Positions 12,352 through 26,981 of a stretch of DNA of 26,981 bases are shown piece after piece. Under the pieces are notes generated by a model that saw nothing but the letters and a program-made list of their open reading frames with translations, ran no database searches and was not told where the DNA came from. The position numbers were made by a program, and so were the translations under genes. Source of the DNA: a virus; the IMG/VR virus record IMGVR_UViG_3300005915_000091, positions 1 through 26,981 of that record; one strand, written 5' to 3'. Positions within the stretch are counted from its first letter, which is position 1; each line of letters begins with the position of its first letter.

Positions 12352-13908
12352 TTAGTAACTCCCTCTCTGCATGAGACGCTCAAAATCCTTAGCCCAATAT
12401 CCATTTAATTTTTCTGCTAATAATCTTACATCCATATCATTATTTATTGAAGCGTTTAAATTAATTGTTGGTGAAAAGGTTACTTCTCCACCTGTTCCAC
12501 TTCTTCCTTTAGGAACTACTCTCTCTCCACGATGCAATATTGCTGGACCGTTTTCAGTTACTAATCCCCCAGTTTGGAACATTCTTAATCCAGAAGATTT
12601 TTTTGGTTTACTTCCCCCAGTAAGCCAACCAAGAATATCCTTACCTACTCCCTTTAGGCCCTCCCATAATCCTTTGATTATCCCCCAAGCTAATTCTAAT
12701 CCTATCTTCCCTATCTCTTCTCCATGTGTGCTAACCCATTTTATTATTTCTTTTATCACATCAAATATGGCAATAATTATTTTATCTATATTTTTTATTA
12801 TCCCTTTTGCTATTGCTAAAATAATATCTAACCCGGCTTTTATTACCTTTGAAAGATTATCTGAAATCCATGTAACTATTTTATCAATTAAAAAAGTAAT
12901 TGCATCTATAATTTTATCAATATTATTTAAAATTCCATCAACTAAAGAGAGTAATAAATCTCCACCCATTTTAATAAATCTTGGGATATTATCAACTAAC
13001 CAACTCCAAACTTTATTGAATAACTTAATAATTACCTCTAACATTGCTGGAAGCCTTTTTTTAAATCCTGTCCAAACTTGTTTTAATAAATTTAAAATTC
13101 CCTCTAACATTGCTGGAAGCCTTTTTTTAAATCCCTCCCATAAGGAACTAAACCATTCCATAACTTTAACCTTTAATTTACCAAAGAATTCAATAACCCA
13201 GAAAAAAGCTTTCTTAGCTTTCTTTACTATCTCAAGTAAAATATCTCCATCAACCCCCATCTTAGTTAATTCTGTTCTTGCACCCTTTGTATTTTTTTCT
13301 AAATTAGTAAAATATCCTATCAAAATCGCCATTAAAGGAATAAATAGACTTACGGCTGCAACTGCTATCAGAAAAATTGGTCCAACTACTGCTAAAGAAG
13401 TTATTGCTAACATTACTTGTCCAACAATTAAAAGAATTTTCCCAAAGAGTGCACCAAATAAAATAAATGTTCCTATTGCTAATTTTACCGATTCTGGTAA
13501 ATTCATAAAAACGTCTATTAAATTATATAACATTGGTAAAATTTTTTCCATAACTGGAAGCATAACAATGGTCCAAGCACTACTCATCATTTCTGTTACC
13601 CCAAATAATTTTAATTGGGTTCTTACTAAACCCCCAAATGCTCTATCTAAAGCCATCCCTGCAAACATAATTCCTAACCACTCCATCTTAAATCTTCTAC
13701 CTTTTATTGCTGCTTGATTTATTGCTTGACCATAGGTTTGCATTTGCCCAGTTAATTTACTTGTAATTTGTTGATTCTTACCAAATGCTAAGAAGTTAGT
13801 TTTCATATGTTTATTGAATTTTCCTAAACTCATTCCAGCTATGTTTAAGCCTTTCTCTAATTCAGTCATATTAGCTGTTCCTACAATCCTTATCTCCTCG
13901 GTCGCAAT
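12352..13908 (-). CDS. Tail tape measure protein, probable ATT start
   Basis: A long, helical, hydrophobic protein in the usual place, upstream of the distal tail genes. Hydrophobic segments near the N-terminal third (FGALFGKILLIVGQVMLAIT, FLIAVAAVSLFIPLMAILIG) are typical tape measure membrane-like regions; helical repeats follow (NIDKIIDAITFLIDKIVTWI, NIDKIIIAIFDVIKEIIKWV). The C-terminus (FQTGGLVTENGPAILHRGER) matches the usual tape measure ending. The natural N-terminus should be ATEEIRIVGTANMTELEKGL, beginning at codon ATT (13908-13906), 7 bases after AGGAG; the upstream HNH stops at 13910. The frame continues upstream only within the HNH gene. The product would be about 518 residues, a short tail. 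The next in-frame ATG is at 13869. Confidence 0.85.
   Translation of the reverse strand: MATEEIRIVGTANMTELEKGLNIAGMSLGKFNKHMKTNFLAFGKNQQITSKLTGQMQTYGQAINQAAIKGRRFKMEWLGIMFAGMALDRAFGGLVRTQLKLFGVTEMMSSAWTIVMLPVMEKILPMLYNLIDVFMNLPESVKLAIGTFILFGALFGKILLIVGQVMLAITSLAVVGPIFLIAVAAVSLFIPLMAILIGYFTNLEKNTKGARTELTKMGVDGDILLEIVKKAKKAFFWVIEFFGKLKVKVMEWFSSLWEGFKKRLPAMLEGILNLLKQVWTGFKKRLPAMLEVIIKLFNKVWSWLVDNIPRFIKMGGDLLLSLVDGILNNIDKIIDAITFLIDKIVTWISDNLSKVIKAGLDIILAIAKGIIKNIDKIIIAIFDVIKEIIKWVSTHGEEIGKIGLELAWGIIKGLWEGLKGVGKDILGWLTGGSKPKKSSGLRMFQTGGLVTENGPAILHRGERVVPKGRSGTGGEVTFSPTINLNASINNDMDVRLLAEKLNGYWAKDFERLMQRGSY
13035..13134 (-). repeat. 66-base tandem repeat in the tape measure gene
   Basis: An exact 34-base block (minus-strand product GFKKRLPAMLE) occurs at 13035-13068 and again at 13101-13134, a period of 66 bases or 22 residues: GFKKRLPAMLEGILNLLKQV then GFKKRLPAMLEVIIKLFNKV. 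Exact DNA identity indicates recent duplication. Tape measure length sets tail length, so each copy would lengthen the tail by about 3 nm if helical. Confidence 0.85.
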
Positions 13909-13909
13909 T

Positions 13910-14452
13910 TTAACACTCCTTTTGCATAATCTTTTTATGCAAACCAGATTTAAGATGAAATTCAGCACAATAAGTTATTCCATTATCAACTCTAAAAACT
14001 AATTCTGGATAAAATGCTAATTGTTTAATGTGATGGGGATGTAACATAATCCCTCCAATTTTATTATTACAAAATTCGCAGTGAGGATTTTGGCAAGTGA
14101 AATTATCTCTCAAGAAAACTAATTCTCTCCAGATTTTCCATTTACTTGTTCTTCTTAATAATTTATTTAGGGGAGTAACTCCTCCTTTCCAATTAGGGTT
14201 ATCTTTTCCCTTACCAAAAGAATAAGCTTTAGGAGATTTTATCTGCCCCCTATGTCCGAGACTAATATTTTCTCTTTGCTTTCTTGTTAATTTCTTTCCA
14301 CGTTTTTTATGGTTCCCTAAATTTGCTAAACTTATTTTTCTCTTTGCTTCTTTTGATTGTTTACTTCCTAATCTCATTTTTTGCCCTTTCTTAAAACCTG
14401 CGATAGGTTTACTTCCTTTTACAAATCTTCCTTTAATATCTCTTTTTACCAT
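13910..14452 (-). CDS. HNH homing endonuclease with NUMOD3 motifs
   Basis: Residues about 30-90 contain repeated NUMOD3-type DNA-binding motifs (SKEAKRKISLANLGNHKKRG, LTRKQRENISLGHRGQ, GKGKDNPNWKGG). Residues 115-180 form an HNH nuclease: C120, C125 and C128, then LHPHHI with H140/H141, N157 and H166/H172. The ATG at 14452 sits in a TAATG overlap with the chaperone gene. The gene separates the tail chaperones from the tape measure, two genes normally adjacent, so it is an insertion. It has no ATG-containing junction at its 3' end and the tape measure appears to lack a normal start codon. A free-standing homing endonuclease is the best call. Confidence 0.88.
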   Translation of the reverse strand: MVKRDIKGRFVKGSKPIAGFKKGQKMRLGSKQSKEAKRKISLANLGNHKKRGKKLTRKQRENISLGHRGQIKSPKAYSFGKGKDNPNWKGGVTPLNKLLRRTSKWKIWRELVFLRDNFTCQNPHCEFCNNKIGGIMLHPHHIKQLAFYPELVFRVDNGITYCAEFHLKSGLHKKIMQKEC

Positions 14453-17513: not shown

Positions 17514-18479
17514 CTAACTATCACTTATTGCTCGAATCATACAATATGCGTTAGCATATTTGATGGCAAAAGCTAATCTTGTAGTAGTTTGATATTTGTA
17601 TTTATCAGTGTCGATGTCATAATCTGTCTTCCAGATAAAACCTCTCCTCTGTCCACAAATAGCAAACTGTTTACTCAATCCTACAACAGCATCAGCACAA
17701 GAAGCAGACTGCGCAGCAGCTGTTCCGTATGATAAGTTTGTAGGTAACTGAGATGTCAGTTTAGCCTTTGTCCCGTAAAGTATACCAACAACGCCTTCTT
17801 TTAACAATGGGCTTCCCCATGTTTCTTGGTTCAATACTGGTCTTGTAGTTGAGTCAGTTAAGGCTGCAACTTGTCCCATTGTTTTTGGGTTCCAGTATGA
17901 AATGTCGGGTTGATCGTGGTTATCTTTAAGTATCTCATAGACTGCCTTTTGAGTTGCAGCTATAGTAATTGTCGAACCAGTCAAAACGCTTCCAGTTCCA
18001 TCAGCGTGTGTTAATTCCGTGTTTCCAGCGGCATCAACAGCGTTCGCCATAGAAGCTGTATCTCTTAAACCTGTAAAGTTAGTTCCACCACCAGTAAGCA
18101 TTTCAGCGTCTATTGATAATGCTATATCAGTAGCCATTTGCTCTACTAAGTGGTCTGCCACACCAACATTATTATCTTCTAAAACCTCAGAAGATGCCTC
18201 TGTCAATGCTGCAACTTTCTTTGCAGTAAGAGTAATTCGTCCAAACTTTGAGTTAGCAGCGGTAATGTCTTCCATTTCGCCTAACCAATATGCAGTTGTT
18301 CCAGCAGTAACTTTAGGGATATATTGTGTAAGCCCAGCCATTTGTCTGATATCACAATCAGCCATAACAGTTGTTTTTGCTTGCACTAATGCCAAAAGTC
18401 TATTGCTAAACTCGTCTGGGACTAAGTATAATCCGTCAGAATTTGTAGCCTCGTTCAAGGCCTTCATAATATCTGCCAT
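17514..18479 (-). CDS. Major capsid protein, HK97 fold
   Basis: A 321-residue protein in the canonical place after protease and scaffold. The N-terminus ATNSDGLYLVPDEFSNRLLA is the family signature for the start of the mature HK97-fold capsid protein, followed by GRITLTAKKVAALTEASSEV and LSIDAEMLTGGGTNFTGLRD. The C-terminal part (GSPLLKEGVVGILYGTKAKL, YQTTTRLAFAIKYANAYCMI) fits the A-domain and P-domain strands. It lacks the usual 100-residue delta domain: the start is at the mature N-terminus, and the acidic scaffold is in the gene before it. ATG 18479 overlaps the previous stop (TAATG). Capsid self-assembles into the icosahedral head. Confidence 0.9.
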   Translation of the reverse strand: MADIMKALNEATNSDGLYLVPDEFSNRLLALVQAKTTVMADCDIRQMAGLTQYIPKVTAGTTAYWLGEMEDITAANSKFGRITLTAKKVAALTEASSEVLEDNNVGVADHLVEQMATDIALSIDAEMLTGGGTNFTGLRDTASMANAVDAAGNTELTHADGTGSVLTGSTITIAATQKAVYEILKDNHDQPDISYWNPKTMGQVAALTDSTTRPVLNQETWGSPLLKEGVVGILYGTKAKLTSQLPTNLSYGTAAAQSASCADAVVGLSKQFAICGQRRGFIWKTDYDIDTDKYKYQTTTRLAFAIKYANAYCMIRAISDS

Positions 18480-19015
18480 TATTTTAAGTCTCCATACATA
18501 CTTGGTGCTTTGAATAAACCATTCATCATAGCCATTTCGCCAATAGATTTCTTCGCTAACACTTCTTTCATCTTATCCACTTTTGAGTCTTCACTTTCGA
18601 TTAGACCTCTTGGTGTTGCAGATGCTTTTAATGCAGCTTGGAAACCCTTAGTCATAACTTCCATCATGTCTTCTTTGCTCATACCTTTTACTTCTTCTGG
18701 TTCAGCCGGAGCTTCTTCAGGAGTTTCAGCAGTTTCAGCAGTAGGTTCAGCCTCAGCAGTTGCTTCCTCTGGTTCTGATACTTCATCAGTAGATTCAGTA
18801 GCTTCTTCGACAGGTGTCTCAGTAGCTTCTTCTTCTTCCATAGGACTTTTCTCCAAATTTAATTCCCCCTTTATCGGCTCTGCGGTTTCCCTCAAAGCTT
18901 TAATCAAGGATTTAAATGATTTGTTAATTGCGTAATCATAAGCAGGTATTCCAACTGCAGAAGTTTCTAATAATTTTATCTTTCCCCATTTCTTTCCTAC
19001 TTTCTTTTTTATCAT
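18479..19015 (-). CDS. Protease C-terminal segment fused to acidic scaffold domain
   Basis: A 178-residue protein. Residues 1-30 (KIKLLETSAVGIPAYDYAIN) match the last conserved block of HK97-type prohead proteases (the EVSVVGIPANxxA element), which belongs after the SIG serine motif of the upstream gene. Residues 58-109 are a Glu/Ala/Thr/Pro-rich acidic region without structure. Residues 112-178 are helical (MSKEDMMEVMTKGFQAALKA, KVDKMKEVLAKKSIGEMAMM) and resemble a scaffold/delta domain. It overlaps the upstream protease by ATGA and the capsid gene by TAATG. It probably guides capsid assembly and is cleaved by the protease. Confidence 0.78.
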   Translation of the reverse strand: MIKKKVGKKWGKIKLLETSAVGIPAYDYAINKSFKSLIKALRETAEPIKGELNLEKSPMEEEEATETPVEEATESTDEVSEPEEATAEAEPTAETAETPEEAPAEPEEVKGMSKEDMMEVMTKGFQAALKASATPRGLIESEDSKVDKMKEVLAKKSIGEMAMMNGLFKAPSMYGDLK

Positions 19016-19455
19016 TCTGGTAACTCCACCATCTCTGGTTCGCTTACTGGGTTTCCACCGATTGAAAATCCAACAGGCATTTTATTTTGAATATATTTAA
19101 AAAATAAGTCTGCGTCTGGGTGAGCTTCATTTAATCTAAGTGTTGCTTTTAGATGTTTTCCCTCTTGAACAGCATCAGTCCAAACACCCATTATTCCTTT
19201 CCATGTATAATTCCCAGGTTCTCCTTGAGCATTTACTCCGTGGTCTGAAAAGAAAGGTATTGTTGCAGATTTATATTGAAGAATCATATCATCTATTCCC
19301 TCTTGACTCATCATTTCGTCTTGCTTATCTGTTTCTAATCCACTAACAATTACAGAAATAAATCTTTGAGAAACTTCTTTTTTACTACCTTTTAGAACCA
19401 TGGTATCTTCATAACAATCTGCTGCATTACATATAAACGTAAATTTTTTACTCAT
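19012..19455 (-). CDS. HK97-type prohead protease, N-terminal (catalytic) part
   Basis: A 147-residue protein (MSKKFTFICNAADC...) with the U35-type protease landmarks: VSGLETD, H72 in PFFSDHGVNAQG, then S131 in KMPVGFSIGGNPVSEPE. The catalytic His and Ser are present; the final conserved segment lies in the next frame, reached by an ATGA overlap. ATG 19455 is preferred over the TTG at 19476. Upstream lie a TATA-like block and a short palindrome. The enzyme matures the prohead by cutting scaffold and capsid precursors. Normal family members are about 180-220 residues, so the two-gene arrangement is odd. Confidence 0.82.
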   Translation of the reverse strand: MSKKFTFICNAADCYEDTMVLKGSKKEVSQRFISVIVSGLETDKQDEMMSQEGIDDMILQYKSATIPFFSDHGVNAQGEPGNYTWKGIMGVWTDAVQEGKHLKATLRLNEAHPDADLFFKYIQNKMPVGFSIGGNPVSEPEMVELPE

Positions 19456-19477
19456 TTGATTAAAACTTCTTAGCAAA

Positions 19478-19494
19478 GCTTAAAACTTTTAAGC
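19478..19494. promoter_or_regulatory. 17-base palindrome between portal and protease
   Basis: GCTTAAAACTTTTAAGC reads the same on both strands around the centre at 19486. It lies between the promoter-like block (19514-19534) and the protease ATG (19455). It may be an operator for a dimeric regulator such as the ribbon-helix-helix protein encoded nearby, or a weak RNA hairpin at the portal mRNA end. Neither can be told from the sequence. Confidence 0.4.
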
Positions 19495-19513
19495 GTTAAT
19501 AGTTTAAAAGAAC

Positions 19514-19534
19514 TATGTTTGTTTTCTATAAAAC
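19514..19534 (-). promoter_or_regulatory. Promoter-like block upstream of the protease gene
   Basis: Minus strand begins GTTTTATAGAAAACAAACAT. The 21-base block is identical to the one upstream of the portal gene (21189-21209) except for one base. The TTTTATAG core lies about 71 bases before ATG 19455 and directly behind the portal stop codon. A TATA-box-containing promoter for protease, scaffold and capsid is the favoured reading. Confidence 0.5.
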
Positions 19535-21156
19535 TATATCTTCAATTTTATGAACGTTTGCAGCTTTTCTACCCTAAATTGCTCTACATCTATAGAGTTT
19601 TTATCAATTCTTGTTTTATATTTCCAGCTTTCATCCCCAAAAAATAGTATAAATTCATTCATGGTTTCAACATAAAGAACCTTACCTTTTGTGAAATTTC
19701 CAGGACCTAACTTGTTTTCAACAATAGAAATGAAATCTGTATAAGATACTGAAATACTATCTGTTAATCCTTTCCTCAACATTACAGATTTAAGTTTATT
19801 ATCAACTTTATCTTTTGGCTTATCATCAATTTTTGCTTGTTCTTTTTGGTCTTTCTCAAAATTAATAGCGTTTTCATCTCCCAATGAATTTGGCATTGTC
19901 CCTTTAGGAATTTCTGGTTCCATACCCATTCTTTCTCTTGCTTCTTCTACAGTAATCATTTGTCCTTGTGTTAGGATTTGAATTATTTGTGCCTCTCTCA
20001 TTTCATCAATCTTATAAGCTCTATTAAATTTCATACGAACCTCGAAGTGACTCCATAATTCTTTGTTCAAAGTAGTTTCCATTCCTTTCTGAATAAAAGC
20101 AATTTTTTTATAATAACCAGATTCTATAACTCCTGCTTGTTTTGCAGTTGCGTCTTTGTTTGCTAATGCATAATTAACTCTTGTTGCTGGGACTCCTAAT
20201 CCCATAAAGATTATTTGTGTGAAGTGTTCTACCAGCTTCGCGAATTCCATATCCTTATTAAATTTATTAACTTGAATTGGATCTACATTTCCAGTTAAAA
20301 CCATAGAACGATATTTCTCTCCTTTCTTTTTTAAATCTCTTAATTCTTTTTTTAGTAATTTATAGTTTCTACCGTTTGGAGATTCTTCAATCATCTTGAA
20401 AATAAAATAAGGAACCCCATCATTTTCAAAATAGTTTCCAGCAAATTCTTTAGCAAATATTAATGTTCCAATATCTGAAAGTAAAGGCTCTAATTCTGAA
20501 AAAGCATAAGGCCCTCCACCAATTCTTACTCCCCCTAAATGAATTATATCTTCTGGTTGATAGACTCTCTTTTCTCCTTTTACTTCTTGAGTGTATGAGG
20601 CTATATCTCCAGTCTTATCATAATTGATTTTTATTGTAGAGGATTTTAATAATTGTAAATCATTTGGAATCCCACCCTCTTGTTTTAATATTTTGAATTG
20701 GTCTGCTTTACTTATTCCAGTAACCCCTAACTTTCTTGCCATATAGTGAGTTAAATTTTCAAGAATACTTTTTAATTTTTCTTTATCTACAGAAAGTTTA
20801 AGGATATAACCATTACCAGTTGCGAAATAATCAAAACAAGCATCAGTAAAGACTTGATAAAATTTAGATTTTATTTCAAATTCATGCACCTTATCCAATG
20901 CAGCTTTACTTAATTTTTTAGAATTAGATGGCGAAGCAAACTTCCAGTAATCAGCCAAGATGTCTTCAACCTTAGCCATAATACAAGCAAAAGCTTCTGG
21001 AGAAGCCTTAAGCACATCATAAAGAGTTTGAACATTAACAGATTTTTCTTGAGAAAATATTTCTTTAAAGATACCCGATGAATCTGCATGCGGCACATAA
21101 CTAACATCCAAGCCTCTAATACTTGCAGTTTTAGTTAATTTAGGTTTATTTTCCAT
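19534..21156 (-). CDS. Portal protein, HK97-like
   Basis: A 540-residue portal protein. Characteristic segments: SPEAFACIMAKVEDILADYW (wing), YFATGNGYILKL, YQPEDIIHLGGVRIGGGPYA with the clip/stem region after it (LLSDIGTLIFAKEFAGNYFE), the crown-side helix (MGLGVPATRVNYALANKDAT) and MITVEEARERMGMEPEIPKG. The portal forms the dodecameric ring for DNA entry. After residue 440 there is an extra C-terminal region (GKVLYVETMNEFILFFGDES, WKYKTRIDKNSIDVEQFRV) beyond the usual family length. ATG 21156 is preferred; GTG 21159 is also in frame. No Shine-Dalgarno is visible. Confidence 0.9.
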   Translation of the reverse strand: MENKPKLTKTASIRGLDVSYVPHADSSGIFKEIFSQEKSVNVQTLYDVLKASPEAFACIMAKVEDILADYWKFASPSNSKKLSKAALDKVHEFEIKSKFYQVFTDACFDYFATGNGYILKLSVDKEKLKSILENLTHYMARKLGVTGISKADQFKILKQEGGIPNDLQLLKSSTIKINYDKTGDIASYTQEVKGEKRVYQPEDIIHLGGVRIGGGPYAFSELEPLLSDIGTLIFAKEFAGNYFENDGVPYFIFKMIEESPNGRNYKLLKKELRDLKKKGEKYRSMVLTGNVDPIQVNKFNKDMEFAKLVEHFTQIIFMGLGVPATRVNYALANKDATAKQAGVIESGYYKKIAFIQKGMETTLNKELWSHFEVRMKFNRAYKIDEMREAQIIQILTQGQMITVEEARERMGMEPEIPKGTMPNSLGDENAINFEKDQKEQAKIDDKPKDKVDNKLKSVMLRKGLTDSISVSYTDFISIVENKLGPGNFTKGKVLYVETMNEFILFFGDESWKYKTRIDKNSIDVEQFRVEKLQTFIKLKI

Positions 21157-21188
21157 CACTTATTTAATATAACAAGGTTTAAGTAGTT

Positions 21189-21209
21189 TATGTTCGTTTT
21201 CTATAAAAC
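21189..21209 (-). promoter_or_regulatory. Promoter-like block upstream of the portal gene
   Basis: Minus strand begins GTTTTATAGAAAACGAACAT; the TATA-like core lies about 45 bases before ATG 21156. The block also overlaps the plus-strand start region of the ribbon-helix-helix gene (ATG candidates 21190 and 21211), so the two divergent genes share regulatory DNA. A plus-strand AT box, TTTAATATAA (21172-21181), lies about 30 bases before 21211. Confidence 0.5.
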
Positions 21210-21210
21210 A

Positions 21211-21477
21211 ATGATAAAGCGTAAAACTAAAGGAAAAGAGTATACTTATGACAAAAAACAAGAGAATCTTATCATAAGCAGTATGATTAAAGACTCAATG
21301 GACGAATTCTGTAAGAAAAATAAACTAAAGAAATGTGATTTAGTAGAGAAATTCTATAAATCAATTATATTAAATTATCATGATGGCTCCCTGGAAGCGA
21401 CTAAAGGATTTGTTACATTGAATATTCTTAATGAAATCCAAAGGAAAGGGAATAAATATTTTCTTAAACCCCTCTAA
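21211..21477 (+). CDS. Ribbon-helix-helix type regulator, only rightward gene
   Basis: The only supported gene on the plus strand, divergent from portal and convergent with TerL (14-base 3' overlap). The 88-residue product (MIKRKTKGKEYTYDKKQENL...) has a strand-like N-terminus, a helix (SSMIKDSMDEFCKKNKLKKC) and a second helix (DLVEKFYKSIILNYHDG) separated by a turn, the ribbon-helix-helix layout. The alternative ATG at 21190 lies inside the promoter-like block, so 21211 is preferred. No Shine-Dalgarno is visible. The likely role is repression of its own gene and the portal promoter, because both start within 60 bases. Confidence 0.65.
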   Translation: MIKRKTKGKEYTYDKKQENLIISSMIKDSMDEFCKKNKLKKCDLVEKFYKSIILNYHDGSLEATKGFVTLNILNEIQRKGNKYFLKPL

Positions 21478-22879
21478 AAGAAACTGCACCATAAGGGTCT
21501 TGAGAAGCTCGATTTGCGAAAGCTAAACTATTAACACAGTCATCATATTTTCCAAAAGATAATTTGTTTCTGGTTGTTTGTCCAGCTCTCAAATCTACAT
21601 GCATAGAAACTTCACTTAATTCTGTGACTAATTGTTGAGTAAAAGCATAAGCATCATCGTCCCTGTTGTTTGGGAGAACCATATTATATCTTTCAAATTC
21701 TCTCCTTAAATCCATTAAGATTTTATGTTTTATTTCATAGGTTACTTTCAGCATTTCTACCCCACCAAATTCTTGTTCAATATCCTTAGCTTGTTTTTCT
21801 CCGATTGTTGTTGCATCAACTACAACTCTTGCTGGTTTAAAATCATTGTATAAATCTCTAAAGATTCTAAGTTGTTCTTCAAACGTATTTCTAAATCTTA
21901 ATCCTTTCACAAGTCTTTTCTTTTCTTTAGTTACTCCCAAGACAGTCATCACAACATAATCTCCTTTTAGATTTCCACCAGCAATATCATACCCTACATA
22001 ATATTGTTCATTCTTTCTTCCGAATGGTAAAAACTTTTCTGTATTAGCAAGTGCTTCATTTAAATATTCTATTGGATAAAGTGAATTAGCGTCGCTGATT
22101 GGTTTTAACATAAACTCTTGTTGGAAAGGTAGTTCTCCTATCTCTTTTTTTATTGCTGGGATACTTCTTTGAGTTTCTGTATCATGTTCTAACATTGTAT
22201 ATTTTTGTGGCCATAATGGTTTTCCGTCTTTAACTACTGGATATTCATCAAAGTAATATTCTTCATTTTCTTTTAATTCATGTAGTAAATCTATTGGAGA
22301 TTTTGGTGTTCCGATCACAAATATCTTTCCACGATTTAATTGAACAACTGCAGAAACCGCAGTCCAGAAAATAGACTTATCTTCGTATTGTCCTCCCTCA
22401 TCACAAAGAAGAAAATCAATTCTTAATCCTCTTACACCCTCTCCATAAGTTTTACAATAAAATATACATCTATTATTAATTGTTAATTCTGTTGCTTTCC
22501 AAGATACGTTTCTATCTCGGGGTATAAATTGAGCAAGCATTTCATTATCTGCAAACATATTTTTTATAATTTTTAAAACCTTTTTACTATCTTCAAAATC
22601 TTGTGAAAGAATAAGAAAAGATAAATTTTCTCCAAAGACTGCTTTCCAAATAAAATATGCTGCAACTAAATTAGTTTTCCCAGAACCTCGAAAAGCCATT
22701 AAACAAAGACGAGGATACTTCTCCATTAGAGTATACCATTCTCGATGATAATCTGACATATCAAATTCAAAAAGATGTTCTGCGAAGAAAGCAAAATCAA
22801 CATAACATTTAGCCCAGAAGTATTCTACTTGATTATTTTCATAATCTGTTCCCTTTAATATCTGTTGTATTGTTCTCAT
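21464..22879 (-). CDS. terL: Terminase large subunit
   Basis: A 471-residue DNA-packaging motor. ATPase part: Walker A AFRGSGKTN at residues 62-70, Walker B IDFLLCDE at 154-161, coupling motif VIGTP at 188-192. RNase H-like nuclease part: D298 in VGYDIAGG, D355 in RVVVDATT and D446/D447 in KYDDCVNS, all metal-binding acid residues present. The length is normal. It packages viral DNA through the portal. Its ATG overlaps the HNH stop by ATGA, which replaces the usual junction with the small terminase; no small terminase is recognised in the window. Confidence 0.93.
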   Translation of the reverse strand: MRTIQQILKGTDYENNQVEYFWAKCYVDFAFFAEHLFEFDMSDYHREWYTLMEKYPRLCLMAFRGSGKTNLVAAYFIWKAVFGENLSFLILSQDFEDSKKVLKIIKNMFADNEMLAQFIPRDRNVSWKATELTINNRCIFYCKTYGEGVRGLRIDFLLCDEGGQYEDKSIFWTAVSAVVQLNRGKIFVIGTPKSPIDLLHELKENEEYYFDEYPVVKDGKPLWPQKYTMLEHDTETQRSIPAIKKEIGELPFQQEFMLKPISDANSLYPIEYLNEALANTEKFLPFGRKNEQYYVGYDIAGGNLKGDYVVMTVLGVTKEKKRLVKGLRFRNTFEEQLRIFRDLYNDFKPARVVVDATTIGEKQAKDIEQEFGGVEMLKVTYEIKHKILMDLRREFERYNMVLPNNRDDDAYAFTQQLVTELSEVSMHVDLRAGQTTRNKLSFGKYDDCVNSLAFANRASQDPYGAVSFRGV

Positions 22880-23271
22880 GAATGGGGTGTGGAAATTATT
22901 ACTAACTTTCCAGATTTCCTCAGATGAACCCTGTTATGGCAACCCCTACAAAGAATAGATAAATTACATAATGAATTATTAAATTTATTTCCATCCTTAT
23001 GATGAACAAGTAACTTGTCATCTGTTCCACAAAGCATACATTCTTGAGGAAATAATTTACTTAATTCCTTATACACTTTCTGATTATGACTATGTGAATT
23101 TTTAACTATTTGAGAAACATCCTTGCATTTTCTACAACAGAATTTAGCGTCTTTATTAGATGGCCTAACAAAAAATTCTATATTACAGAAATTACAATTT
23201 TTCTTTATTTTCTCTTTAAAGGTTCTATATTTTCTATTTCTCTCTGCCATCCAAGGACATTTTCTTCCCAT
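22876..23271 (-). CDS. HNH endonuclease with N-terminal zinc ribbon
   Basis: A 131-residue protein with two metal sites. First, CNFC at residues 26-29 with CCRKC at 45-49, a treble-clef-like ribbon typical of phage HNH proteins. Second, an HNH domain: CMLC at 78-81, LLVHHKDGNKFNN with H90/H91, then ILCRGCHNRVH. The start is in a TAATG overlap with the glycosyltransferase and the end overlaps TerL by ATGA. Inserted directly upstream of TerL; HNH genes beside terminases are known to assist packaging in some phages (HK97 gp74 type), so a packaging role is as possible as a selfish one. Confidence 0.85.
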   Translation of the reverse strand: MGRKCPWMAERNRKYRTFKEKIKKNCNFCNIEFFVRPSNKDAKFCCRKCKDVSQIVKNSHSHNQKVYKELSKLFPQECMLCGTDDKLLVHHKDGNKFNNSLCNLSILCRGCHNRVHLRKSGKLVIISTPHS

Positions 23272-24512
23272 TAGATATTCTCCTCGAACAAGTCAAGCCA
23301 AAGCTTAGCTACAATATCCCAATCATAAGTTAGTGCAAACTTTCTACTTTTCTCAGACATCTCTTTCAGAGTTTCTCTATCTCCTTTCCAATCTGTATAA
23401 TACTTTTCAAGTAATTGAGTTATATGAACATCATCAGGTATAAGATTTTCAACACCATTAGTTCCAATATAACCAATAGGTCTTCCATGATTATCTTTCA
23501 ATGTATCAATTAACTCTCCACTTTCTTCAACTAATTCTGGGCCAGTAGTATTATTACTCATAAGAATAGGTAATCCACTTGCTTGAGATTCAATCGCTGG
23601 TAAGCCAAATCCCTCTCCACCAGTAGAGTAAAGAAACAAATCAAATAAATTATAAACATCATTCATATTGTCTGGTTGTATTGCTTGTCTTGTAAGAATA
23701 TCCATATCTCCTTGAGTCATCATTATCTTTTTAGAAGCAAATAAATCTCCACCACTTTCTTTTTCAAATTTCCAAACAAGAGCGTCTATCACAGAACCTC
23801 TACCCTCTCCACCTGGGGGATGAGCATCAGTATGCATTAGCAAAGTAACATCATCTTTACCTTTAGCAAAATTAGCAAATCCTCTCATCATATGGGGGAT
23901 CATCTTTCTTGTTTGATTTCTTCCAACAAACCCTACAACAAACTTTTCGTTTATTCCAAATGCCTTTCTTCTTTCTCCCCTATCTGCACTTGGAAAATAA
24001 GCCTTTGTATCCACACCATGAGGAATATATTTTACATTAGGAACATCATTATTCTTCATCATTATTTCTCCAAACTTAGCCATGGCGATATTAATATCTG
24101 GTGTAGCAAATATCTCAGTCCAATGAACCGCCCACTGGTGACAATCAATAGGAGTATAAGCTAACCATTTTCCTTTCCATCCTCTTTGTTTTGCTTCTTT
24201 AATTCCTGCAATAAATCCACTTTGTTTTCCAACATCACAAAGGGTAATTAATATCTCAGGTTTATATTTCATCAAGTTTGGTAGAACCATATCAAACCCA
24301 TGATTATCTCTACCTCTTGGTAGCATATAGTAACCCTCAGCACGTTTATGTGGTCTATCAGTGTTCTGCCAACCAACATGCATGAAATCCCATTTAGGTT
24401 TCATCTTAGCCCATCTACGAAGTAAATTATCCCAGACACAACCATAGCCAGTAGACATCTTAGGATTATCTCCAAATGTCATTACAGTTATTTTCTTATC
24501 TTCTATTCCCAT
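23271..24512 (-). CDS. GT4-type glycosyltransferase (413 aa)
   Basis: A GT-B fold glycosyltransferase. N-terminal Rossmann part (ITVMTFGDNPKMSTGYGCVW) and C-terminal donor-binding part with VVGFVGRNQTRKMIPHMMRG and the EGFGLPAIESQASGLPILMS element, keeping both Glu residues of the E-x7-E nucleotide-sugar motif. It probably transfers a sugar from a nucleotide donor to a virion or host surface acceptor, or to modified DNA bases; the acceptor is not indicated. A second GT4 gene lies upstream. The start overlaps the tiny zinc-ribbon gene by 10 bases. Confidence 0.88.
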   Translation of the reverse strand: MGIEDKKITVMTFGDNPKMSTGYGCVWDNLLRRWAKMKPKWDFMHVGWQNTDRPHKRAEGYYMLPRGRDNHGFDMVLPNLMKYKPEILITLCDVGKQSGFIAGIKEAKQRGWKGKWLAYTPIDCHQWAVHWTEIFATPDINIAMAKFGEIMMKNNDVPNVKYIPHGVDTKAYFPSADRGERRKAFGINEKFVVGFVGRNQTRKMIPHMMRGFANFAKGKDDVTLLMHTDAHPPGGEGRGSVIDALVWKFEKESGGDLFASKKIMMTQGDMDILTRQAIQPDNMNDVYNLFDLFLYSTGGEGFGLPAIESQASGLPILMSNNTTGPELVEESGELIDTLKDNHGRPIGYIGTNGVENLIPDDVHITQLLEKYYTDWKGDRETLKEMSEKSRKFALTYDWDIVAKLWLDLFEENI

Positions 24513-24622
24513 GCTTCTTCATCATCACACTCCTTACAGATTACCTTTTCTTCTCCATCCACTCTAATTGGGATTTCTTCGCCATGAAAAATTCCTTTAG
24601 AACAGAGAAAACAAGTCATCAT
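24503..24622 (-). CDS. Tiny zinc-ribbon protein (39 aa)
   Basis: A 39-codon frame from ATG 24622 (MMTCFLCSKGIFHGEEIPIR...) to TAG 24505-24503, with two CxxC knuckles: CFLC and CKEC (residues 29-32). It overlaps the methyltransferase stop by ATGA and the glycosyltransferase start by 10 bases, so it fills the gap between them exactly. It should bind one zinc ion. The acidic C-terminus (DDEEAWE) may bind a partner. The function is unknown. Confidence 0.65.
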   Translation of the reverse strand: MMTCFLCSKGIFHGEEIPIRVDGEEKVICKECDDEEAWE

Positions 24623-25317
24623 TTGAATGCGTGAAATACCCCCCTGTGAATTTGCTCATTGGCAAAAACCATTTTAACTTCTTTAAATCCTGCAGCCTTT
24701 AGCATTTCTGCAACACACTTAGGGTTAGGCCCACACCAAGTTCCAGGATCGTTGTTACATTGTTTATCAGAATAAAAAGCCATTACAGCCTTATCTCTAA
24801 TATTCATACAATCCATATGAGTTTCAATAATACACATCCCCCCCTCTGCAGTAATATCATACATAACTTTACACATCCCAAAAGGGTCTTTCATGTGATA
24901 CATAATTCCTAAGCAAAGAACTAAATCAAATTGTTTAGGTTGTGCTTTTGCTAAGTCCATAACTTCTATTTCCATACTTTGAACTGCTGAATTAAGGATT
25001 GTTTGAGCAAAATTAAAACCTTTTTTTCCAGTATGCATTATCTCTCTACCTTTATCTGCTGCCCAAAGTGGGCCTTCTTTCCAAGTAATTGTATCAATCG
25101 CTAAAACATCTTTAGCACCTCGTCTTTCACATTCAAAAGAGAAGAAGCCATCCCAGGCTCCTACATCTATCACACTTTTTCCCTTCAAATTATTTGGTAA
25201 TTGTATTGTTTGTAACTTTGGTTGAGTATAATCTCTGCCAGGAGTCATGACTCCGTCTAATTCCATTTGATGCCACCAATCAATTTCATTCATCTCCTTT
25301 AATTCTTCTGGATTCAT
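24619..25317 (-). CDS. Class I SAM-dependent methyltransferase, CmoB-like
   Basis: A 232-residue enzyme with motif I VIDVGAWDG (residues 49-57), an acidic strand end D75 in VLAIDT, and the segment FDLVLCLGIMYHMKDPFGMC (130-149), whose LGxxYH element is typical of CmoB-like/Methyltransf_9 enzymes. Those act on tRNA or small molecules and sugars; viral relatives often lie among glycosyltransferases and may methylate sugar. The substrate is not known. It overlaps the C2H2 gene by ATGA at its start and the tiny zinc ribbon by ATGA at its end. Confidence 0.85.
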   Translation of the reverse strand: MNPEELKEMNEIDWWHQMELDGVMTPGRDYTQPKLQTIQLPNNLKGKSVIDVGAWDGFFSFECERRGAKDVLAIDTITWKEGPLWAADKGREIMHTGKKGFNFAQTILNSAVQSMEIEVMDLAKAQPKQFDLVLCLGIMYHMKDPFGMCKVMYDITAEGGMCIIETHMDCMNIRDKAVMAFYSDKQCNNDPGTWCGPNPKCVAEMLKAAGFKEVKMVFANEQIHRGVFHAFK

Positions 25318-25598
25318 TTTAGATATTCCACTATTTTTTCTTTTTTAGATTTATTATACCAAATTTTAGCATGTTTAATATATTCTTTTCCATCAATAAC
25401 TTTCTCCTCATCACTAAAGAAATAATAGGGATAAAGTTTCTGAGGTTTTCTAAGTTTAATTGTAGCTTCCATATGTTCTAATATGAAGTGTTCTTTAATA
25501 TCATTTATAGATTTAAATGTTTTTTTACATATCTTACATTTATAGGAGTGATATTTGCTTGATGATACAAAATGTTTTCTTAATTCATTTGATTTCAT
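25314..25598 (-). CDS. C2H2 zinc-finger protein
   Basis: A 94-residue protein with one classical C2H2 finger: C21-x2-C24-x12-H37-x4-H42 (YKCKICKKTFKSINDIKEHF...), including the Phe and hydrophobic core spacing. The rest is basic and aromatic (RKPQKLYPYYFFSDEEK). Such fingers are rare in bacterial phages and frequent in archaeal viruses. It probably binds DNA or a protein partner. The start overlaps the HNH stop by ATGA. Confidence 0.75.
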   Translation of the reverse strand: MKSNELRKHFVSSSKYHSYKCKICKKTFKSINDIKEHFILEHMEATIKLRKPQKLYPYYFFSDEEKVIDGKEYIKHAKIWYNKSKKEKIVEYLK

Positions 25599-25948
25599 TT
25601 TCTTGTGTGGTTATTCTCTCCTTTTTTATATTGAAATGGGATTAGATGTGCAATATGTTCTATCTTGTGATGATACCTACAAAGAATTTCCAAATTAGAT
25701 AATTCATTATTTTCTGGATTTCTGTCTTTATGATGTATTTCTAAATTTTCATTAGAACCACAAACCACACAAACTTGAGGTAATGTCTTTTTTAATGTCT
25801 GTGAGTATTTTCTACTCTTTCCACCTTTCCAAGCAGGGTTATCTTTACCTTTATGTTTGCCTTTCATAGATTTTTTAATGCTCTCCTTGTGTGTTTCACT
25901 AAGTTTAATCTTCTTTCTGTTTTTGATTTTTCCTTTTGATTTAGTCAT
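25595..25948 (-). CDS. HNH homing endonuclease with NUMOD3-like motif
   Basis: The start is set by an 8-base overlap (ATGACTAA) with the glycosyltransferase stop; an in-frame ATG 6 codons upstream is less likely. The 117-residue product has a NUMOD3-type element (KGKHKGKDNPAWKGG) and an HNH domain: CVVC at residues 60-63, LEIHHKDRNPENN with H72/H73, and ILCRYHHKIEH. It is inserted between the glycosyltransferase and C2H2 genes with overlapping junctions on both sides. One of four HNH genes here. Confidence 0.87.
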   Translation of the reverse strand: MTKSKGKIKNRKKIKLSETHKESIKKSMKGKHKGKDNPAWKGGKSRKYSQTLKKTLPQVCVVCGSNENLEIHHKDRNPENNELSNLEILCRYHHKIEHIAHLIPFQYKKGENNHTRK

Positions 25949-26981
25949 TTTGTAAAAATTTAACAATCTTCTCGGCCGTTACAGACCAAGTCCAATGCTC
26001 TCTAATTTCTTTACTAACCTCTAAGCCTCTTGCTTTTAATTCATCTTTCTTTTCAAAAGCAAATCTCATTTGTTTTTTAATATCTTCAAAGTCTGGTTTA
26101 GCTAACATATTTCCAGGGCAATAAAATCGAGGATCTCCTTGTTCAACTTCTGTCGCATCAATCCAAACAACTGAATCTCTATCTTTACAGAAATCCATAT
26201 GTCCAGAATTAACATCTTTAGTCACAACTACTGGTAATCCGCAAGCCATAGCGTTTAAGATTGTTAATCCAAATCCCTCTCCTTTTGTGGGTGCTACAAA
26301 ACAATCTGCTTCTTGATAATACTTAACTAAATCTTCTTCACTTTTATATTCTGTATCAATTATTATATCTTTATTTTCATGTCCTAAAATGTTTTTTGCT
26401 AATTGTTTGTAATCTCTTTTATCTTGCCAGAAAGTTCCAATCTTTAAAATTAATTTTGCTTCGCCCTCTTTAAATTCTTCATCAAATGCTCTTAAAAGTA
26501 AATCAGTTCCTTTTCTATCTCCAACTTCACCACTCCAAGAATTAACTGAAAGGAATGTAAATTTAGCTGTGCCAGAGCTGTTCCTTAGCTGTGCCGGTTT
26601 ATAAATTTCTGGATTAGTTCCATAATGAATAACAGTTATTGGAATTGTAATGTCATTCCATTTATACAAATTTTTATTACTTTCAGAACAAACAAATATC
26701 TTTTCGCATTGATTAATTAATGGAATCCATTGTGGAAATATCTTAGTCCCCTCATGAATTGGGTGTCCAATTAATTCTCCATAGCCACCTTGCCAAGTTT
26801 GAGGGTAAGCAGCAAAAATAGTTTTAATATCTTTAGAATTTCCATCAATAGCTTTGTTCAAATATTCTAATCCTTTATTACAATCATACTTAGAATTCCA
26901 TACATCAGCTACTTGAATTTCAACATCATCTCTTTTGGCTAACGCCTTAACCATTTCTCTATTTGCAGTTGCGATTCCTGT
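25941..26981 (-). CDS. GT4-type glycosyltransferase, N-terminus beyond window
   Basis: A GT-B glycosyltransferase cut by the right edge. An ATG exists at 26954, but the frame is open to the end of the window and the upstream codons read TGIATANRE, the usual N-terminal element of this family (TGxAxxNREMVKAL), so the real start lies outside. C-terminal part: FLSVNSWSGEVGDRKGTDLL, then PTKGEGFGLTILNAMACGLP. The second Glu of the E-x7-E motif is Asn here, which may change donor binding. It ends KIVKFLQND and is joined to the HNH gene by an 8-base overlap. Confidence 0.85.
   Translation of the reverse strand, partial: TGIATANREMVKALAKRDDVEIQVADVWNSKYDCNKGLEYLNKAIDGNSKDIKTIFAAYPQTWQGGYGELIGHPIHEGTKIFPQWIPLINQCEKIFVCSESNKNLYKWNDITIPITVIHYGTNPEIYKPAQLRNSSGTAKFTFLSVNSWSGEVGDRKGTDLLLRAFDEEFKEGEAKLILKIGTFWQDKRDYKQLAKNILGHENKDIIIDTEYKSEEDLVKYYQEADCFVAPTKGEGFGLTILNAMACGLPVVVTKDVNSGHMDFCKDRDSVVWIDATEVEQGDPRFYCPGNMLAKPDFEDIKKQMRFAFEKKDELKARGLEVSKEIREHWTWSVTAEKIVKFLQND

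Follow-up and report, generated by a model that had tools for sequence, protein, structure and literature searches.

How a prohead protease should be interpreted whose conserved residues are distributed over two reading frames, as a damaged gene or as an enzyme composed of two polypeptides, is the question raised by the virus record IMGVR_UViG_3300005915_000091 (IMG/VR), of which positions 1-26,981 were analysed (26,981 bases, termed the window throughout). The minus strand holds the head genes in the usual order, namely terminase, portal, chain 1, chain 2 and capsid protein (Table 1), with the split protease gene in the location typical of the S78/HK97 type, between the portal and major capsid genes. 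A first-pass annotation had placed the catalytic His72 and Ser131 (GFSIGG) in the first of the two frames and the final conserved protease block at the beginning of the next gene, where it is followed by an acidic region and a helical scaffold, and had noted that the break falls inside the normal fold at an ATGA overlap of 4 nt. All of these features are present. As to their meaning, the annotation offered either two coupled chains or a one-base change or sequencing error.

Table 1. Features of the split protease locus and of the neighbouring head genes, in window positions.
Feature	Position	Strand	Evidence
Terminase large subunit	21464..22879	(-)	
Portal protein	19534..21159	(-)	
Chain 1 (147 aa from ATG), core of an S78-type prohead protease	19012..19455	(-)	fold model, profile match to S78 set
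Catalytic His72 codon, aligned to His65 of HK97 gp4	19240..19242	(-)	
Catalytic Ser131 codon (GFSIGG); FSIG motif aligned to Ser114 of HK97 gp4	19063..19065	(-)	
GGAG, candidate ribosome-binding site of chain 2, within the end of chain 1	19024..19027	(-)	
ATGA junction, chain 1 stop overlapping chain 2 start by 4 nt, chain 2 in -1 frame	19012..19015	(-)	
Chain 2 (178 aa), comprising the last protease strand block and, fused to it, the acidic and helical scaffold	18479..19015	(-)	
Final protease block of chain 2, residues 8-31, KKWGKIKLLETSAVGIPAYDYAIN	18923..18994	(-)	
Chain 2 codon for Glu17, probably the third active-site residue, at the aligned position of invariant Glu141 in HK97 gp4	18965..18967	(-)	
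GGAG, internal Shine-Dalgarno sequence before Met59	18851..18854	(-)	
Free nested scaffold of 120 aa, predicted to start at the internal ATG (Met59 of chain 2)	18479..18841	(-)	
HK97-fold major capsid protein without N-terminal scaffold (delta) domain	17514..18479	(-)	alignment to TIGR01554

The AlphaFold2 model of chain 1 (mean pLDDT 80) is predicted to adopt the prohead protease fold. Its first match in the PDB is the T4 prohead protease gp21 (PDB code 5jbl, probability 1.00, E 1.4e-3, TMq 0.60, 132 columns), three gp21 chains being the best matches (TMq 0.57-0.60), and prohead proteases are also found among its viral matches in BFVD. A sequence search of the PDB gave no meaningful match and a Pfam search with chain 1 and chain 2 at E up to 1 matched no family; the kinship of the two chains with S78 is based only on profile-profile comparison and fold. 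For this comparison a reference alignment of HK97 gp4 and nine other S78 proteases was used, in which His65, Ser114, Glu141 and Ser143 (HK97 gp4 numbering) are invariant. Against this set chain 1 gives an E-value of 8.7e-8 and chain 1 joined to the chain 2 block one of 8.7e-14, the joint profile having been built with the expected order in mind. More independent evidence is provided by the profile of chain 2 alone, which aligns at the end of the protease domain (E 1.9e-4), and by the head-maturation-protease PHROGs matched by members of the chain 2 family; single chain 2 sequences give weak E-values against protease families.

The residues expected of an S78 enzyme are partitioned between the chains. 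His72 and Ser131, both invariant among the relatives, lie on chain 1, while the conserved glutamate of the LxExS strand block is found on chain 2 as Glu17. In alignment with HK97 gp4 as a single sequence Ser131 is placed opposite Ser118, whereas alignment with the complete S78 set puts the FSIG motif of chain 1 on Ser114, a position where the phage proteases of L122 and L125 carry FSIG/FSVG. Chain 2 starts with MIKKKVGKKWGKIKLLETSAVGIPAYDYA / KKWGKIKLLETSAVGIPAYDYA and contains the last conserved protease block KIKLLETSAVGIPAYDYA, after which an acidic stretch and then helical-looking sequence follow. Glu17 is invariant in 16/16 aligned chain 2 sequences and, together with the likewise invariant Ser19, corresponds to Glu141 and Ser143 of HK97, which are invariant in single-chain S78 proteases. 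The glutamate follows the serine by 27 residues in HK97 gp4 as well as in the haloarchaeal virus protease described below, and in the T4-related S80 protease SPN3US gp245, with its aligned triad His77, Ser153 and Asp178, the aspartate stands 25 residues after the serine (PMC5694885); Asp is the third residue in the S80 enzymes related to T4 gp21 (PMC5694885). Because of this matching spacing Glu17 is probably the third active-site residue. Since the invariant His and Ser reside on chain 1 but the invariant Glu on chain 2, the active site is probably completed in trans by the scaffold-linked strand of chain 2, and the enzyme would, judging from Glu17, need chain 2.

The division of the gene is not peculiar to one record. 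A second IMG/VR record of 45.9 kb is 99.99% identical to the window over 26.1 kb and displays the same junction, and the chain 1 of a third is 100% identical to that of the window. Relatives were collected from IMG/VR with alignments as well as the protease and capsid protein sequences as queries, and 35 loci including the window were tabulated (34 of them distinct when chain 1 is compared at 95% identity), the most diverged of which are about 46% identical to the window. In 35/35 loci the protease is split within the same loop, between the serine motif and the ETS strand; L109 and L067, which lie beyond the tabulated set, are also split. The junctions are varied. Chain 2 is in the -1 frame relative to chain 1 in 20 of the 35 loci, overlapping by 4 nt in 14 and by 1 nt in six, and in the +1 frame in 15, of which 13 have overlaps of 8-26 nt, L080 a 1-nt gap and L045 a 100-nt gap. 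An 8-nt gap is found in L109. In pairwise comparison (Nei-Gojobori) dN is lower than dS in 13/13 pairs, both over chain 1 and over the initial 50 codons of chain 2. To judge from these substitution patterns, both halves are maintained as separate proteins under purifying selection.

These observations bear on two explanations in which no genuine two-chain design would exist. That the gene is decayed, or broken by a sequencing error, in this one virus might be supposed because only a frame difference parts two pieces of a normally single protein. This explanation was rejected and its probability is negligible, as the same junction is present in other records, all close relatives are split down to about 46% identity, giving about 36 distinct loci with the same split, and dN is lower than dS in both halves; the one-base change or sequencing error proposed in the first-pass annotation is thereby excluded. 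The single uninterrupted frame that the annotation had considered for relatives occurs only in four GC-rich relatives of haloarchaeal type (HRTV-28/L087, L088, L089 and L108). Alternatively, ribosomes could shift frame at the junction in a programmed manner, or bypass it, and yield a fused chain at least sometimes, and as -1 overlaps make up most of the junctions, a -1 shift would indeed fuse the chains in those viruses. However, neither the frame nor the overlap is constant, no slippery site is shared among the junctions (slippery heptamers are rare and not conserved among the loci), gaps part the halves in L045, with an ORF inside, and in L109, and chain 2 has a Shine-Dalgarno sequence of its own in 74% of the loci. 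Programmed frameshifting was rejected on these grounds and is very unlikely. Together, the split at the same loop in all the close relatives, the varied junctions and the purifying selection on both halves disfavour error, pseudogene and frameshift fusion alike, and the split is regarded as a real, conserved and functional-looking, if unusual, design of a known enzyme family. The enzyme is encoded not as one polypeptide but by two ORFs in all close relatives, which makes it a variant and does not exclude its kinship with S78.

The split point is also the site of further sequence variation. In many relatives C-terminal extensions of chain 1 sit exactly there: a DUF6582 tail (Pfam) in L016 and L020, similar tails in L041, L056, L057, L060, L067 and L080, and zinc-ribbon-like CxxC tails in L007, L012, L015, L017, L018 and L021. 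As so many relatives lengthen the end of chain 1 by a zinc-ribbon-like or DUF6582 segment, the junction appears to tolerate insertions. The 100-nt gap of L045 (L045:3346-3445) contains a 33-aa acidic ORF between the protease halves.

Two features escaped the first-pass annotation, the S78-invariant glutamate on chain 2 and a conserved nested start of the scaffold within the same chain. The internal Met of chain 2 follows a conserved LN peptide, and GGAG or a longer Shine-Dalgarno sequence is retained upstream of it although the peptide sequences encoded there vary. When each locus is represented by its best Met in the interval of residues 43 to 80, and a Shine-Dalgarno match of at least 4 nt is required, the internal signal is found in 31 of 35 loci compared to 12.7 on average and 21 at most under a synonymous-codon null (1000 randomisations), with the reservation that the sequences are related and the counts not independent. 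A simpler rule gives 24/34 (null mean 10.2, maximum 18). The internal start is hence an in-frame signal with a ribosome-binding site conserved beyond synonymous-codon expectation, and it predicts a free nested scaffold, beginning in the window with MEEEEATE, comparable to Nu3 of phage lambda. In lambda C/Nu3 the scaffold is made alone from an in-frame internal start, which is situated in the 3' part of the protease-scaffold coding region; the C protease belongs to another protease family and is a single chain. Here, by comparison, there are two genes, and it is the second that contains the nested start. Shine-Dalgarno matches of at least 4 nt precede 15% of the chain 1 starts, 74% of the chain 2 starts and 89% of the internal starts; little protease core, more chain 2 and still more free scaffold are therefore predicted, as a core particle needs. 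The chain 1 start is without a Shine-Dalgarno sequence in the window (19456-19533) and in many relatives, and A/T-rich TATA-like runs about 25-40 nt upstream of chain 1 resemble archaeal leaderless promoters.

The best isolated relative of the split enzyme is gp10 of Halorubrum tailed virus 28 (HRTV-28, Suolaviridae, MZ334528), a protein of 356 aa annotated as prohead protease (E 6e-12, or 3e-20 using chain 1 of L045), which is 34% identical to chain 1 over the core. Its sequence is colinear with chain 1 plus chain 2, comprising the core, GFSIG, the loop, the LxExS strand block LMEISPVGIQSHPDA and an acidic, coiled scaffold, and its gene directly precedes the capsid gene like the split pair. 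In contrast to the latter it is one uninterrupted chain, as are the proteins of L088, L089 and L108, which are haloarchaeal-type contigs, and no clear Shine-Dalgarno sequence is present before an internal Met. The model of the HRTV-28 single chain has low confidence in the strand region, where the alignment comprised three rows. The word protease is absent from the main text of the HRTV-28 paper.

In HK97 gp4 (MEROPS S78), which is encoded between portal and capsid protein, the same invariant His, Ser and Glu are found in the same order, but on a single chain. HK97 carries its scaffold as the delta domain at the N-terminus of gp5, the capsid protein, whereas the scaffold here sits on chain 2. 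T4 gp21 is likewise a single chain and its scaffold comes from a separate gene (gp22). Residue 5 of the capsid protein of the window corresponds to position 101 of the HK97 capsid model TIGR01554, and because the alignment begins there the capsid protein is devoid of an N-terminal scaffold domain, as the first-pass annotation had noted. Its further proposal that the scaffold has moved from capsid to protease agrees with the presence of the scaffold on the protease side and its absence from the capsid protein; the arrangement is not odd in itself, being found in the single-chain gp10 of HRTV-28. In a paper on thaumarchaeal proviruses, proteases fused to the capsid protein are reported and split ones are not described. 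Literature searches for split prohead proteases returned no description of any, and none of a prohead protease with an active site completed in trans by the scaffold.

Taken as a whole, it is probable that the locus encodes an S78 (HK97-type) prohead protease as two polypeptides, with the strand block bearing Glu17 on the scaffold chain and with an internal start for extra scaffold. In the mechanism we propose, the second, internal start of chain 2 would make extra scaffold lacking the strand, and this free scaffold would, together with some full-length chain 2, build the procapsid core and co-assemble with the capsid protein. Chain 1 would bind the strand block on chain 2, so that the enzyme becomes complete inside the assembling shell, where its activity would be confined and where it would then digest the scaffold before DNA packaging. 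The first-pass suggestion of two coupled chains is supported as far as the chains are concerned, and that they act as one joint enzyme is what the partition of the residues suggests. We slightly favour the stricter version, in which the protease is obligately two-chained, its active site is completed in trans by the scaffold, and the number of active proteases per procapsid would be set by the proportion of scaffold with the strand to scaffold without it; with the third catalytic residue on the scaffold chain, no complete enzyme would form unless scaffold and core had co-assembled.

A different role of the chain 2 block is conceivable, in which chain 1 is a complete and active protease on its own and the block is a docking or recruitment signal joining scaffold and protease. 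The model of chain 1 alone, predicted with fair confidence and matched to T4 gp21 over the 132 columns mentioned above, is consistent with this, as is L067, in which chain 2 (L067:3828-4301) has lost, in frame after LFE, the greater part of its final protease block, while an intact chain 1 and the nested scaffold start are kept; L067 is either a natural exception or an assembly fault. Herpesvirus-like proteases, moreover, can use a different third residue. However, Glu17 and Ser19 are precisely the residues that are invariant in single-chain S78 proteases, and a mere docking tag need not retain them, so that a self-sufficient chain 1 is considered improbable.

Several further observations concern the surroundings of the locus. 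The 14-mer GTTTTCTATAAAAC occurs in two copies on the plus strand, one just downstream of the portal gene in the interval to chain 1 (19521-19534) and one upstream of the portal gene (21196-21209), and is possibly a promoter or regulatory element. Glycosyltransferase and methyltransferase genes adjoin the head genes (23271-26954); the longer near-identical record adds genes for a GDP-mannose dehydratase, a TPP enzyme, an aminotransferase and a radical SAM protein, and all of these perhaps form a sugar-modification cassette. An ORF of 448 aa on the plus strand (12371-13717) runs antisense to the tape measure gene (12352-13968, minus strand) and is probably a by-product of codon usage.

Genes for group II chaperonins of the thermosome type are present in the near-identical long record and in a second relative (L114:8712-10127 and L117:15743-17134), the chaperonin of the former matching thermosome-type sequences with 5e-90 compared to 4e-21 for GroEL. 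Since, in addition, it is a haloarchaeal virus that has the protease most similar to the one in the window, the host is likely, though not proven, to be an archaeon. No relative was found in two scans of genome contigs for proviruses, and no MCM helicase in nine relatives. A RuvB-like AAA+ ATPase with a weak match below the curated cut-off is encoded by the virus with the first of these chaperonins (L114:4595-5497).

For annotators the locus carries a warning, as enzymes of this kind may be reported as missing or broken in surveys of archaeal viruses because neither half matched Pfam. There is no settled account of what keeps procapsid proteases inactive before the shell has formed; the proposal made for T4 gp21 involves self-cleavage of its N-terminus (PMC9958956). 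A scaffold chain that holds a probable active-site residue suggests a different and testable answer, namely that activity would be licensed by assembly.
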